DNA of 64,000 nucleotides from Crossaster papposus (Eukaryota; Echinodermata; Asteroidea; Velatida; Solasteridae): contig JBAIAA010000787.1 of NCBI GenBank assembly GCA_037893245.1, forward strand, positions 248,001-312,000, in the 5' to 3' direction. Position numbers and translations under genes: made by a program. Positions 39,383 to 46,032 of the stretch are shown piece by piece (the stretch's first letter is position 1; every line of letters begins with the position of its first letter). The notes under the pieces are model-generated. The model did not search any database. It was not told the origin of the DNA and was given only the letters and a program-made list of their open reading frames with translations.

Positions 39383-40014
39383 TGGGGCCGGTTGCACCAA
39401 ACACGTCCTACGTGCTTGTCGTAAGATAAGAAATTTAGGACAACCCTAAGACGTAACTGCGGTTGCACCAAAAAGCTTTTAGGCCGTCCTAAAATGCATA
39501 TCTTACGACACGCCGTAGGACATGTCCTACTGTATAATTATAACTGTATTGGGACCGACGCAGGTCACAATCCCGAAATTAGATTAGCAACTGTACACAG
39601 CATGTTTTCAATCAAATATGTTTTATTTTTCTTTAAAAGCAATCAAATTTGATAAACCATTCAAGCATGTCAATAAAGAGCATGTTCTCTCACTCATTTC
39701 GAAAAAAATAATTACCGAAATTGATCTATGCTATCAGAAGTTATGCATGTGCATGGAATACTATTGGAAGCTGTTGAATTCAAATACAAATGAGATTTTA
39801 ATAATTGAAATTAAGACTAAAAACCTTATTTGCATTGTCAGATTTTGTATTTAGAACAAGTGAACACTTTTCCCACGAAATATTAATGGCTATTTTTGTA
39901 TTTCTTTTTTTGCAAGTCAATAAAATGTACCTTATATCCACGTAAACAAAAAATATATATACATGTATATATATGAAATAAATAGGATACGAGTTAAAAT
40001 AACTTTGGCATATT

Positions 40015-40062
40015 TATTTCTGGACAGACTGTTTCGTACCGTGTGGCACTCATCAGCAGAAT
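40015..40062 (-). ncRNA. Type I hammerhead ribozyme of Penelope-like element 1
   Basis: The minus strand shows every core segment in order: stem I strand TTCTG; CTGATGAG; stem II TGCC-ACAC-GGTA closed by G-C; CGAAAC; a 3-bp stem III (ACA / TGT, loop GTC); cleavage triplet GTC; and the returning stem I strand CAGAA. All 15 invariant core positions I can check match. A very short stem III is what is known for hammerheads in Penelope-like elements. It should self-cleave just 5' of CAGAA. Neither mutation nor mispairing is seen in stems I to III. Confidence 0.8.
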
Positions 40063-40181
40063 GACATAGAATATCGTGTAGCATCTTCGTATACACATGG
40101 AATCAGGCTTGCGTTGCGCGCGTTATGTATCGAACCCTGATCGCGCTCCGCGTTTATACGTTATTGAACTTATTGCGCGCG

Positions 40182-40998
40182 TTACGTCACTGACCCTAGC
40201 ACGCACTTGTCTCGGTGCCTACACTTAGAGACGATTTCGCTCCTCTTATTTAGTGTACCTAGGTTGGGCTTGCATATGATTATGTATTTTTCTGCTATAC
40301 ACAAGTTGCATCTTTTGTTTACATTAGAGTATGGTAGTGCTCTTTGGATAATGTCCCATTTGATTTCAAAGTTCTTTCCTTCGTCCTTTAGGGCCCATAT
40401 GTGTTTGCTCAGTTCGGTCTGTGCTCTCTTGCTCTCGCATCTGAACGACTGCTTGTGGTTCGCCAGCCTCGCCTTGAATGTTGTGGAAGTTAGCCCGACG
40501 TACGATTCTATTCTTCCCTTCTCACTCGCGACGGTGGCCTGGTAGATAATGTTCTTACTTAGGCACTCTCCGTTTAGTGGGCATTCTGTGTTGCGGGGGC
40601 AGCTGCACATCTTATCTTTGATTTCTTCTACTTGCTTTACTTTTCGCTTGTTGGCTGATTGAATTGCTGTTTTGACGTTTGGCATGCAGCTGTACGACAA
40701 TTTTACCGTATTCCGGTTCAGTATCTTGTGGAGTATATGTTCCTTGGGAAAGCATCTATCGATGATCTGGAGAAATTTCTTACCAATGTTGGTCCGTACA
40801 TTTTGGTTGTATGGTGGGTTGTACCACGTCACGTCTCGTTTTCTGGTATTCTTCCTTTTCTTTTCACTTGGTTTGTAAGATAACTGGTACCTGTACCCGC
40901 TTTTCTGTAGAGCCTCCTGGTATATCGGGGCAGCTTCTTCAAATGCATCCTTGGATGAAGAGATGTTTGACAGGCGTTTATTGACTCCCTCTGTCAAC
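40182..40998 (-). CDS. C-terminal part of Penelope-like RT/GIY-YIG polyprotein (element 1)
   Basis: The minus frame reads GVNKRLSNISSS, then AAPIYQEALQKSGY, RKRDVTWYNPPYNQNV, LNRNTVKLSYSCMPNV, a cysteine cluster (CSCP..CPLNGEC), then SYVGLTSTTFKARLANHK, and ends with a stop at 40182. The region after the RT palm, the cysteine cluster and the GIY-YIG endonuclease (YVG...R..NH) match Penelope-like elements of cnidarians and other invertebrates. Residues upstream of about 40998 in the same open frame come from element 2 read out of frame and are not part of the protein. The RT core is missing, so it is not functional for transposition. Confidence 0.8.
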
Positions 40999-41003
40999 AT
41001 GTG

Positions 41004-41365
41004 TATTGTCAACATGTGCACAAGTTTTGCACCTTGGACGCTTGCAGGGAACAGTTCTGAAGGGGCCGTTGTCGATGGTACAAGTGGTGCTGGGGAGTGT
41101 TGACCGAACAACATGGTTGCTGATGGAGCGGTCACGTCTAAAGGAACATAGGGGGTTCGTAGACTGGGTGAAGATGGCGCAGGTTGCTGGATCTTCCTGC
41201 AGCGTCTTGAAGTGCTTGAGGAGGATATTCTTGGCAGCCATGTTTAGGGGGTGGTAGGTAAGAACAAGAGGAATACGACCTTGTTGCTTCGGGGGGGGCT
41301 TGTTCCATGGCGGCATTGCGGGTGACCGATGAAACTCTGCGAAGCGCACCATCAGTCACAGATGA
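41004..41365 (-). mobile_element. Penelope-like element 2, copy III (partial)
   Basis: Nearly identical to 41864-42226 of copy I and in the same orientation. It covers the linker upstream of the GIY-YIG domain (SSVTDGALRR to CKTCAHVDNT). Its poly-C/G tract has 8 bases against 7 in copy I, which breaks the frame. Partial direct copies next to a full copy are common for Penelope-like elements. Confidence 0.8.
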
Positions 41366-41367
41366 TG

Positions 41368-41385
41368 TATATATATATATATATA
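41368..41385. repeat. (TA)n tract at a Penelope-like 3' junction
   Basis: About nine TA units between copy I and copy III. A longer (TA)n tract lies after copy II at 44750-44773. Confidence 0.85.
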
Positions 41386-41387
41386 GA

Positions 41388-43628
41388 AAATGTGAAAATA
41401 TAAATATAACAGTGCTCACCGGAAATAAGACCGAGCTTTCGGTGCGAATGCACCTTCTTCAGGGAGAATTATGGCTTGTTGTGATGTCCCGCTGGTAGAA
41501 CAAACGCGGAGAAGGTGAACTCCGCGTTCATCCCGTCAGGTTGGAGCGTGCCCAGTTGGAACATCACACGCTGTTCCAAAGATCGGCGCTGCGTGTCCGA
41601 CGATGCCGTGGAAACAACGCAGACGCTCATGTCCTTGGTGGAGTGAGATGGCGCGCCGAAGTGTTGGGCGACAGCCAGGCCGGGTTGTTTCAGCCGAACG
41701 CTTCGGAGATGCTCCGTAAAACGGTCGGCAAGTCGGCGCTTGGTTTCTCCAATATAAAGCAAGCCACAGCGAGTACACTTAATACAGTAAACAAGATTAG
41801 TAGTGGTGCATTTGAAATGGCCGCGGATGTTGAAATGGCCTCGGGGACCAGTGATGGATGATGTATTGTCAACATGTGCACAAGTTTTGCACCTTGGACG
41901 CTTGCAGGGAACAGTTCTGAAGGGGCCGTTGTCGATGGTACAAGTGGTGCTGGGGAGTGTTGACCGAACAACATGGTTGCTGATGGAGCGGTCACGTCTA
42001 AAGGAACATAGGGGGTTCGTAGACTGGGTGAAGATGGCGCAGGTTGCTGGATCTTCCTGCAGCGTCTTGAAGTGCTTGAGGAGGATATTCTTGGCAGCCA
42101 TGTTTAGGGGGTGGTAGGTAAGAACAAGAGGAATACGACCTTGTTGCTTCGGGGGGGCTTGTTCCATGGCGGCATTGCGGGTGACCGATGAAACTCTGCG
42201 AAGCGCACCATCAGTCACAGATGATGGGTATCCACGTCGTTGGAAAAAACCTTTCATTTCTTTGCCTCGCTGTTTAAATTGGTTATCCTCGCTGCAAATA
42301 CGACGGAGGCGGAGGAATTGGCTATAAGGGATGGCATCCTTGCATTTCTTGGGGTGAGACGACTCATAATGCAAGTAGCTGTGAGAATCGGTAGCCTTGT
42401 AGTGGACTGAAGTGGAGAGAGAATTGCCATTGATTGACACACTGATGTCGAGGAAGGTGATGGTCTCATTGGAAATCTCAGAGGTGAATTGCACAGCTGG
42501 GTGAAGGTTCTCCGCATACTGGATGAACGTATGGACGTCTTCCACTGACCCAGAAGTGGCACCGATGATGTCATCGATGTACCGTTTGTACAGCAACGGT
42601 TGAGGCCCAGGATAAATTGACATCATCTTCTCCTCGAGAGATCCAATGAATAGGCACGCGTAACTGGGACCCATACGCGTGCCCATTGCGACGCCAGTGG
42701 TCTGCAGGTAGTGCTTTCCGTTGAAGGTGAAGTTGTTAAGGGTGAGGACAAGTTCGGCAAGCCTGATGAGGGTATTGGTAGGGGGGTCACAGTCTGGACG
42801 GCGGTCAAGAAAGTGACGTAGGGCTAGTAAACCATCGGCGTGGGGGATGCAAGTGTACAGTGATTTGACGTCCATACTGAACAGGTAGTTAGTGGAGCCC
42901 GTGAATTCAAAGTCGGCGAAGGTATGGAGAGCGTCATTGGTGTCCTTCACATATGAGGGGAGTTGGTTGACAATAGGGGACAGCACAGAGTCAATGAACT
43001 GTGAAATCAACTCAGTGGGGCAATTGCAAGCTGAAACGATGGGCCGGCCGGGATTATCCTTCTTGTGAATCTTGGGAAGCAAATAGAAAACGGACGTTCT
43101 GGGATATGAAGTGATGAGTTTAGTAGCATTCCCGGGTAGCTCACCTGTGTCGATAAAGGCCTTGATTGTGTCAGACACGATTCCCTGGTGCGTAGGGGTG
43201 AGGTCGTGGTCGATCACTTGGTAACTGGTATCTGTTAGTTGTCGCTCAGCTTCGGACATATATAGATCTTTACGCCAAACCACAGTTGCTCCACCTTTGT
43301 CCGCTCTCTTAATGACATAGTCCTCTTCTTCCTTGAGTGATCGCAGGGCCTGTTGTTCTGCAGAAGAGATGTTAGACCTGGTGCAACGGTTGTTAAAATT
43401 GAGGCGACTAACGTCAGAGCGACAATTCTCAATGATTCGGTCGAGAGACTTGTTGAGGCCAGTAGGTGGACACCAGTTAGATTCTTTTGGGACTAGTTTA
43501 TCAATGGTACTGACTGTAGGGGTATCATCACGATGAGCAACAGTGGATGGACTAACCTCTCTGTCGTGGAAGTAGGCTTTAAGACGCAGACGTCTGTAGA
43601 ACATTTCAATATCTCGTCGAGTAGAAAA
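41388..43628 (-). mobile_element. Penelope-like element 2, copy I
   Basis: Minus-strand element with one long ORF. The 3' end runs into a (TA)n tract at 41368-41385. The 5' end stops at about 43628, where the inverted copy II begins. The first residues read (FSTRRDIEMFYRRLRLKAYF) lie inside the usual N-terminal region, so the 5' end is truncated. Confidence 0.88.
41469..43604 (-). CDS. Penelope-like reverse transcriptase with GIY-YIG endonuclease, 711 aa
   Basis: An open frame of 711 residues. RT motifs appear in order: KRADKGGATVVW near residue 97, YLLPKIHKKDNPGRPIVSA, LFSMDVKSLYTCIPH, TGVAMGTRMGPSYACLFIGS, the catalytic LYKRYIDDIIG, and ITFLDISVSI. A linker and a cysteine motif (CKRPRCKTCAH) follow, then the endonuclease LVYCIKCTRCGLLYIGETKR with RLADRFTEHL. 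This is the full Penelope-like domain order (RT then GIY-YIG), which primes reverse transcription from a nick the endonuclease makes. Catalytic YxDD and GIY-YIG residues are intact. The N-terminus is truncated; the start shown is the first Met. Confidence 0.93.
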   Translation of the reverse strand: MFYRRLRLKAYFHDREVSPSTVAHRDDTPTVSTIDKLVPKESNWCPPTGLNKSLDRIIENCRSDVSRLNFNNRCTRSNISSAEQQALRSLKEEEDYVIKRADKGGATVVWRKDLYMSEAERQLTDTSYQVIDHDLTPTHQGIVSDTIKAFIDTGELPGNATKLITSYPRTSVFYLLPKIHKKDNPGRPIVSACNCPTELISQFIDSVLSPIVNQLPSYVKDTNDALHTFADFEFTGSTNYLFSMDVKSLYTCIPHADGLLALRHFLDRRPDCDPPTNTLIRLAELVLTLNNFTFNGKHYLQTTGVAMGTRMGPSYACLFIGSLEEKMMSIYPGPQPLLYKRYIDDIIGATSGSVEDVHTFIQYAENLHPAVQFTSEISNETITFLDISVSINGNSLSTSVHYKATDSHSYLHYESSHPKKCKDAIPYSQFLRLRRICSEDNQFKQRGKEMKGFFQRRGYPSSVTDGALRRVSSVTRNAAMEQAPPKQQGRIPLVLTYHPLNMAAKNILLKHFKTLQEDPATCAIFTQSTNPLCSFRRDRSISNHVVRSTLPSTTCTIDNGPFRTVPCKRPRCKTCAHVDNTSSITGPRGHFNIRGHFKCTTTNLVYCIKCTRCGLLYIGETKRRLADRFTEHLRSVRLKQPGLAVAQHFGAPSHSTKDMSVCVVSTASSDTQRRSLEQRVMFQLGTLQPDGMNAEFTFSAFVLPAGHHNKP

Positions 43629-44716
43629 CCATCACCTTCCTCGACATCAGTGTGTCAATCAATGGCAATTCTCTCTCCACTTCAGTCCACTACAAGGCTA
43701 CCGATTCTCACAGCTACTTGCATTATGAGTCGTCTCACCCCAAGAAATGCAAGGATGCCATCCCTTATAGCCAATTCCTCCGCCTCCGTCGTATTTGCAG
43801 CGAGGATAACCAATTTAAACAGCGAGGCAAAGAAATGAAAGGTTTTTTCCAACGACGTGGATACCCATCATCTGTGACTGATGGTGCGCTTCGCAGAGTT
43901 TCATCGGTCACCCGCAATGCCGCCATGGAACAAGCCCCCCCCCCCCCCGAAGCAACAAGGTCGTATTCCTCTTGTTCTTACCTACCACCCCCTAAACATG
44001 GCTGCCAAGAATATCCTCCTCAAGCACTTCAAGACGCTGCAGGAAGATCCAGCAACCTGCGCCATCTTCACCCAGTCTACGAACCCCCTATGTTCCTTTA
44101 GACGTGACCGCTCCATCAGCAACCATGGTGTTCGGTCAACACTCCCCAGCACCACTTGTACCATCGACAACGGCCCCTTCAGAACTGTTCCCTGCAAGCG
44201 TCCAAGGTGCAAAACTTGTGCACATGTTGACAATACATCATCCATCACTGGTCCCCGAGGCCATTTCAACATCCGCGGCCATTTCAAATGCACCACTACT
44301 AATCTTGTTTACTGTATTAAGTGTACTCGCTGTGGCTTGCTTTATATTGGAGAAACCAAGCGCCGACTTGCCGACCGTTTTACGGAGCATCTCCGAAGCG
44401 TTCGGCTGAAACAACCCGGCCTGGCTGTCGCCCAACACTTCGGCGCGCCATCTCACTCCACCAAGGACATGAGCGTCTGCGTTGTTTCCACGGCATCGTC
44501 GGACACGCAGCGCCGATCTTTGGAACAGCGTGTGATGTTCCAACTGGGCACGCTCCAACCTGACGGGATGAACGCGGAGTTCACCTTCTCCGCGTTTGTT
44601 CTACCAGCGGGACATCACAACAAGCCATAATTCTCCCTGAAGAAGGTGCATTCGCACCGAAAGCTCGGTCTTATTTCCGGTGAGCACTGTTATATTTATA
44701 TTTTCACATTTTCTAT
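43628..44716 (+). mobile_element. Penelope-like element 2, copy II, inverted head-to-head
   Basis: Plus-strand copy of the 3' half, pairing with 41388-42464. Arms of about 1.08 kb are nearly identical and separated by a ~1.16 kb loop (42465-43627). It starts inside the RT (accatcaccttcctcgacat) and runs to the same 3' end as copy I. Confidence 0.88.
43652..44630 (+). pseudogene. RT C-terminus and GIY-YIG domain of copy II, frameshifted at a poly-C tract
   Basis: The frame starting ISVSINGNSLST runs to EQAPP and then shifts. The GIY-YIG part is read in the other frame (KQQGRIPLVLTYHP to LLYIGETKRRLADRFTEHL). The break coincides with 14 C at about 43935-43948, where copy I has 7. One substitution (NHGVRST against NHVVRST) is also seen. 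The RT core is absent. Confidence 0.85.
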
Positions 44717-44749
44717 GCTCTTCAGTGCTACGCAGCATCCCAAATTTTG

Positions 44750-44810
44750 ATATATATATATATATATATATATTGTAAATAGAAAATGTGAAAATATAAA
44801 TATAAAAGTG
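44750..44810. repeat. (TA)n tract plus short inverted fragment of the element 2 3' end
   Basis: About 12 TA units, then tagaaaatgtgaaaatataa, which also occurs at 41388. This is another partial 3' end in minus orientation. Confidence 0.7.
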
Positions 44811-46032
44811 AGCCAAATATTTGTCATTGTTTCCCTTCAAATTCGGTTCCTTTTTTTACTCTAGTGTAGTGTGTGTTCCGTGTCGATTAAAACACATCCG
44901 AGTTGTAGATTGAACAATTTCACATTGTTCGACCCTACTTTCGACCCTTTCTATAATTGTTGTAGTTTTGTGTAGAAACAATTGGAGCATTTGAACAAAA
45001 TCTAAATAGTTAATCCCACGTGCAGTCTCCAAACGTCTTTTAACACGATGTTTGTGTTTTACGAAAACTCGTTTAATGTGATGCTATTTGGTCCTTCGAA
45101 AATGTTTAGTTTTGAATAAAAAATACAATTTTCCTTTTCAATTTTTTGTTTACAACCGAATGGTGTTAAAACATGCAGAAGTATTGTTTTCAATATTTTC
45201 ATTATAAATTATGATTGACACTGTACTTCAACCCGAACATATTGCCGCGAATGGCTACCCTAACTAGTTAAGTCACCTCCCCACTAGACGTAATTTCATG
45301 TCGTAAATCCATGTCCTACTAATGCGTAAGTTGTGATGGTGCAACAGTTGTGTCGTAATTTCTTTCGGTTGCACGAAAGTTGTCTTACACCACACGTAAG
45401 TCAGAATGCGTACGGCAAGGAAGTTAGTACATGTCGTAAGACATCGATGGTGCAACCCATTTTCGTTCGTAACTTTAGTACAGCACTTAAGACTGTTGGT
45501 GCAACCGGCCCCATGGTACATGACCACTCGGTTCGAATCGGAGTAAACATAGCATCGTGTCATTCCGAGTCCGATACCGTTCAGCGAGGCCCCTTGGGTG
45601 TCAACACAATTGTACAAAATGCACCCATACCTTTTGCAACCAGGTTTTACTCGGTGACAATGAAGCAAACATCGTACGGAAGCCCCTTTCACGACGTAAG
45701 AATCATAATAATTTCACGATGCAACAACGCAGTTATTGACCATAATGGGCCTGCTTCATTTAGGAAAATAACAAGTTATTTTTAGATTTCCCTCTAACCA
45801 GTGCGCGCTGGGTTTATGTTCAAGTTACCGAGACCACTGGCGGGATTGTTTTTTCATTGAACAAAATATTTTTTTTATTCAGTAATTTCTTTTATTCAGT
45901 TTTATTCCTGTTTTGATATTGCAACTACTACAAGATGCCAACACTTAGTTTATGAGCTCTGTTATTTACATTGCAGATAGGGGCTTGGTTGAAGACTAAT
46001 CTATATATTACTTTTTGTCTGTGTAATTTTAG
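44811..46032. other. Non-coding; includes right arm of the TGGGGCC block
   Basis: No supported exon. 45270-45513 is the right inverted arm. 45950-46032 belongs to the host duplication that matches from about 59300. Confidence 0.45.

Follow-up and report, generated by a model that had tools for sequence, protein, structure and literature searches.

Whether the hammerhead ribozyme of a Penelope-like retrotransposon cuts the RNA from which the element copies itself is the question raised by a short motif in the genome of Crossaster papposus, found in a stretch of 64,000 nucleotides that was analysed as a whole (the window). Published work already describes hammerheads in Penelope pseudo-LTRs as well as the tandem units, tails and head-to-head copies, and the part of PMC7761336 consulted calls what these hammerheads do in vivo still mysterious. 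The family at this locus, labelled PLE-H here as the hammerhead-bearing Penelope-like element, is young and has about 200 near-identical copies that record the start and end of each cDNA; the family can therefore show whether its templates were cut at the ribozyme. What is added here is a reading of that footprint, according to which templates would have been mostly uncut, with a few copies broken or starting at the scissile bond, a reading that rests on three events; among the titles and abstracts listed by literature searches, none ties insertion ends to the ribozyme. Positions in PLE-H are counted from the predicted cut, with negative numbers upstream.

The motif lies on the minus strand at window positions 40017-40062, where the Rfam model for type I hammerheads (Hammerhead_1, RF00163) matches over its full span (model positions 1-45, full core) with 37.6 bits and an E value of 7.1e-6 in the 64-kb window, compared to a gathering score of 34 bits. 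This is the sole match to any Rfam family at the gathering level in the window, and it bears out an earlier note on this DNA, which had claimed a complete canonical hammerhead and had named the Rfam type I model as a check. The stems of 5, 5 and 3 bp, the loops and the cut site given in that note are likewise all correct. On the minus strand, the 5' strand of stem I (40061-40057) is followed by the core CUGAUGA (40056-40050), stem II (GUGCC/GGUAC with loop ACAC, 40049-40036), the core GAA (40035-40033), the 3-bp stem III (ACA/UGU with loop GUC, 40032-40024), C17 (40023) and the 3' strand of stem I, CAGAA (40022-40018), with cleavage predicted between 40023 and 40022, 5' of CAGAA. The pairing had been called free of mismatches; every named helix does pair, but stem II includes one G-U wobble.

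A chance motif is ruled out by the Rfam score together with a search of the window's own genome (1.02 Gb in 1841 contigs), in which a 44-nt pattern of the ribozyme occurs at 198 sites (97 + 101) when as many as 3 mismatches are allowed, and the reversed pattern at 0. The nearest-neighbour minimum-energy fold of the stretch is not the hammerhead, and the stability of the 111-nt stretch containing it is not unusual (z 0.64); since the Rfam hammerhead consensus shows a comparable gap between the hammerhead and the minimum-energy fold, folding energy is uninformative on activity. Self-cleavage of the PLE-H hammerhead is given here as a prediction.

The motif belongs to a PLE-H copy truncated at its 5' end (39971-40993, minus strand), which corresponds to unit positions -971 to +52 and aligns by blastn with the tandem units of contig C338 at 99.4% identity over 1024 nt; this match marks the copy as a young one of a tandem retroelement. 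The C-terminal part of the PLE-H open reading frame occupies 40182-40993 (minus strand), with the same protein end as the 701-aa family protein P0003, and includes the end of the reverse transcriptase region, a Cys-rich linker and a GIY-YIG-like motif recognized by eye; its stop codon (40182-40184, minus strand) lies about 120 nt upstream of the hammerhead. A TA-rich flank (39952-39970) directly follows the 3' end of the copy. The claim that the hammerhead belongs to a Penelope-like element beside a 5'-truncated reading frame is supported.

The complete form of the element is seen on C338, where five hammerheads recur every 2434 bp with reading frames between them, three of the four complete-unit frames spanning 711 open codons between stops and the fourth 592; P0003 is the 701-aa protein that begins at the first ATG. 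Within the array, a hammerhead stands 120 nt after one stop codon and the next ATG follows at +170 after the cut. The placement of the ribozyme "in the tail" thus holds for the 3' end of one unit, but in tandem units the hammerhead lies between reading frames and is also part of the 5' leader of the next unit. Genome-wide, at least 74 Rfam hammerhead matches were scored, at least 72 of them over the cut-off, and at least 100 of the 198 pattern sites are identical letter for letter. Recent activity of the PLE-H family is supported: the 99.4% copy, the open reading frames and the identical hammerheads uphold this part of the earlier claim for the family, whereas the perfection of the ribozyme alone would be no sign that the truncated copy is active. 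Over 15 distinct haplotypes of 51 copies, the ribozyme has 3 changes in its 44 nt and the flanks have 34 in 81 nt, a comparison that was not counted because most of the loci were chosen for a good ribozyme score.

Assignment of the family was approached through the protein and through the structure of the copies. P0003 has no significant Pfam match, including none to a reverse transcriptase, and none in NCBIfam or among PDB sequences; the Pfam GIY-YIG family gave no match in P0001 or P0003. In the reverse transcriptase region, P0003 aligns with P0002, the protein of the neighbouring element in the window, with a BLASTP E value of 2e-7 at 20% identity. P0002, which we take to be of Penelope type, has a Pfam RVT_1 match above the cut-off and a GIY-YIG match below threshold; a comparison of A1 with P0002 by hhalign was weak (33% probability, E 4.6e-4), and a search of solved structures by sequence gave P0002 a single match at chance level. 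PLE-H is filed as Penelope-like on the alignment with P0002 and on an architecture that comprises tandem units with pseudo-LTRs, 5' truncation, a tail and inverted copies. Its endonuclease is a putative GIY-YIG enzyme according to motifs picked out by eye (IIYQATV...YVGLT in P0003), and both YQATV and YVGLT are retained in a paralogous C-terminal protein on contig C251. No relatives were found in viral contigs, GTDB contigs or phage records. A metazoan retrozyme, which is non-autonomous and about 170-400 nt long, is ruled out by the 2434-bp unit and its 701-aa reading frame.

The surroundings of the copy hold a second Penelope-like element (41383-44716), a palindromic insertion that is nested next to TA repeats and has a 711-aa reading frame (41469-43604, minus strand), inverted arms identical over 775, 314 and 297 nt, and an 82-nt pair at 98%. 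No second ribozyme was detected in this neighbouring element at E values up to 5 within 39500-45500. A fragment of the same element (41002-41372, minus strand, left edge approximate) repeats 41862-42231 with 100% identity over 296 nt and 98% over 81 nt, with a one-base shift. Across 40993-41372, the PLE-H copy continues at its 5' end into this internal fragment, which has the same orientation and is followed by TA repeats; perhaps the joint records a template jump between the RNAs of the two elements. An imperfect 28-nt inverted repeat at 39414-39513, near GGTTGCACCAAA and with a 34-nt reverse match to 45474-45507, is perhaps a small DNA transposon. Elsewhere in the genome, on C251 (418001-448000; loci L009-L011), seven solo hammerhead segments (about -79 to +119) form a tandem array at intervals of about 3.6 kb, with a related endonuclease-like frame on the opposite strand that measures 288 codons in six repeats and 200 in the seventh.

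Where copies end was assessed genome-wide with 44-nt probes allowing up to 3 mismatches. The probe for -44 to -1 found 198 sites, the one spanning the cut (-22 to +22) 238 and the one just after it (+1 to +44) 229, and only 21 sites were found for +120 to +163; nearly all copies therefore stop by +120. None of these four probe counts shows an accumulation of ends at the cut. Among 89 fetched copies containing +1 to +44, a non-random set picked because the ribozyme scored well or because the downstream sequence matched and the exact upstream part was absent, 46 end at +53 to +59, 31 at +120 and 8 read into the next unit, while 2 run to the border of the retrieved sequence and 2 are of other kinds; L023 and its mirror L024 are classed among the 46 and actually extend to about +119 after a small indel. 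TA repeats follow 68 of the 77 classified 3' ends. On C338, C353, C258 and L021, the 3' flank of PLE-H consists of a TA repeat and then GAAAATG..., the 3' border of the second element, standing tail to tail.

The same positional logic was applied upstream of the cut. Of 100 listed sites among the 229 with +1 to +44, chosen by downstream sequence only (all exact sites and the first with one mismatch; 59 with an exact upstream part by pattern search and 41 read individually), 98 retain 17 nt or more on the upstream side of the bond. The RNA copied beside the start site was therefore nearly always uncut there, suggesting that the hammerhead is usually still uncut when PLE-H copies itself. Two of the 100 break at the bond: L047 begins exactly at +1, and L053 continues from -18 to -1, then 11 extra nucleotides, then +1 onward, an insert at the bond and not a clean start. 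Altogether, 26 of the 100 sites have a 5' end between -43 and +1, including these two, and the ends concentrate at -28 to -38 (17, compared to 6 at -17 to -27 and 7 at -39 to -49, three of the last resembling small indels and not ends: L056, L064 and L069). Inverted arms appear twice in these counts, L041 is a repeat of L040, and L057 looks much like L054; there are thus fewer independent events.

Starts of units can also be followed from the 21 sites beyond +120, of which 13 have a ribozyme or unit upstream according to listings or loci and 8 do not. Among these 8, the copy L077 on contig C559 starts at +2, L076 at or before +4 inside an AAAT repeat, L071, L074 and L075 at +34 with one flank common to all three, L072 at +36 and L073 at +55, and L078 has no match upstream of +120; seven of the eight thus start elsewhere than at the bond or are ambiguous. 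The next ribozyme of the L077 copy follows about 2372 bp on (by position) and is intact, and the copy ends near +120 past it. This shape is the one expected of a template trimmed at its upstream ribozyme with the downstream one whole, and a deletion inside the ribozyme is also possible, with GAAAC standing just before the start. L047 and L077 as starts, and L053 as an insert, are as cut templates might give. With the three +34 copies counted once, 3 of 6 breaks between -16 and +36 fall on two bond positions (binomial 0.001; 0.014 without L053; 2.6e-4 in a narrower interval without the +34 and +36 copies), in an interval chosen post hoc, with few events and from two samples that cover different stretches.

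Head-to-head arrangement of copies adds a further view of the ends. Sixteen adjacent head-to-head pairs occur among the fetched copies, six of which were dropped: a C251 pair 11 kb apart, the second L021 pair, in which one arm reads through, L041 as a repeat of L040, L024 as the mirror of L023, and L060 and L061 with an arm cut by the edge of the locus. In 9 of the 10 kept pairs, one arm ends at +53 to +59 and the other at +120 (binomial 0.008 under the overall end frequencies), the exception being the L023 pair, whose arms both end near +119/120; two C258 pairs, outside this count, are also mixed. L042 and L043 are palindromic head-to-head copies with an identical internal joint and base change. 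Their flanks differ once past the TA repeats, which looks like duplication of the whole palindrome to another site.

Combined, the motif, the tandem units, the 3' ends in two separate clusters a short way downstream of the ribozyme, and the TA flanks are observed, and they probably reflect an endonuclease-bearing Penelope-like retrotransposon with a hammerhead in its pseudo-LTR, the downstream ribozyme being uncut when reverse transcription starts and the upstream one perhaps sometimes cut. An RNA transcribed from tandem copies would contain a ribozyme in each unit; the reverse transcriptase would start at +53 to +59 or at +120 on RNA uncut at the adjoining ribozyme and would then read upstream through it. 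A weaker suggestion is that a ribozyme upstream in that RNA may sometimes be cut, giving copies that begin at the bond such as the one on C559. The ribozyme would in this way trim multimeric transcripts from the 5' side, and the one beside the reverse-transcription start would stay whole. The specific proposal that in vivo some new Penelope copies owe their 5' end to hammerhead cleavage, with the upstream ribozyme of a tandem transcript cut, the downstream one protected beside the reverse-transcription start and single units reaching from +1 as far as +120 beyond the following ribozyme, is considered doubtful.

Known systems agree with much of this scheme, and the earlier note's remark that hammerheads in Penelope-like elements are known is confirmed by the portions of PMC7761336 and PMC11167929 covered. 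PAc, a Poseidon-type Penelope-like element of Anolis carolinensis (PMC11167929, in part), resembles PLE-H in its single reading frame with a reverse transcriptase and an endonuclease region (in PLE-H, the former by alignment with P0002 and the latter as a motif by eye), its tandem repeats with pseudo-LTRs, its AT-rich targets and optional tail, and a hammerhead just upstream of two reverse-transcription starts, which for PLE-H are deduced from 3' ends. In the sections covered, reverse transcription of PAc has two adjacent starts downstream of the hammerhead that match the genomic tail, uncut RNA is used in vitro, and not one RNA read began or ended at the cut site. The mostly uncut templates proposed for PLE-H fit PAc, because PAc ribozyme mutants insert in vitro as well as the wild type; this result and the lack of reads at the cut site also count against the preferred explanation. 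Unlike PAc, as far as that account describes it, PLE-H has its 3' ends at +53 to +59 and +120 and a stem III closed by 3 bp; the PAc ribozyme overlaps the start of its reading frame, with the cut 26 bp after the start codon, whereas the PLE-H cut lies 169 nt before the ATG. In its closed stem III, PLE-H is fuller than the minimal Penelope type (PMC7761336, in part) and nearer to the hammerheads of invertebrate retrozymes, which, in the part of PMC7229834 covered, share the type I form, a short closed helix III and tandem repeats with PLE-H and differ from its 2434-bp units in being non-autonomous and about 170-400 nt long.

Other explanations bear on the same footprint. The ribozyme may be retained mainly for translation or RNA turnover with no part in copying, and starts at the cut site would then be chance 5' truncations; this is a possibility of some substance, though a minority one, given that the bond is uncut in 98 of the 100 listed sites and that PAc insertion in vitro is independent of the ribozyme (PMC11167929, sections covered), and it is countered by the half of the breaks around the bond that fall on two positions, with the post hoc interval and few events already given for that statistic. 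Whether the RNA is inactive as a monomer, cleaving only as a dimer or with a protein of the element, appears evenly balanced and is compatible with the preferred explanation: the 3-bp stem III is weak, PAc ribozyme cleavage requires protein (PMC11167929, in part), and minimal Penelope hammerheads may act as dimers (PMC7761336, in part), but the stem III of PLE-H is closed, unlike the minimal type that the covered part of PMC7761336 describes as being without helix III or loop-loop contacts.

It is unlikely that the hammerhead is useful as DNA, its self-complementary stem II and core joining two first-strand cDNAs, primed on two target strands, head to head to leave the palindromes known from inverted junctions of Penelope. 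Joints do lie inside the hammerhead in L040, L042, L043, L044 and L045 and at its edge in L060, L048 resembles a snap-back with loop II of the ribozyme, ACAC, at its turn, and 5' ends concentrate at -28 to -38; however, L020 joins symmetrically at -136/-142, outside the hammerhead, the joints overlap by no more than 1-3 nt, and extra bases number 6 in L022, 3 in L045 and 24 in L061. The peak of ends could equally simply come from run-off at a transcription start near -40, where the A of an initiator-like TCATTCT lies at -40, one nucleotide before stem I, and a TATAC starts 31 nt upstream of that A (both by eye). Pseudo-LTRs, head-to-head copies, junction palindromes and a tail on one of two inverted arms are shared with the Penelopes of Adineta vaga, for which the tail on one arm and the palindromes are read as self-priming (PMC3846280, in part); the sections of that account covered make no mention of a hammerhead, whereas several PLE-H junctions lie inside one.

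Overall, the preferred reading of a hammerhead that is probably left whole beside the reverse-transcription start and may sometimes be cut upstream attaches to a known kind of ribozyme, and PLE-H provides a useful in vivo test of the role of the hammerhead in Penelope-like elements.
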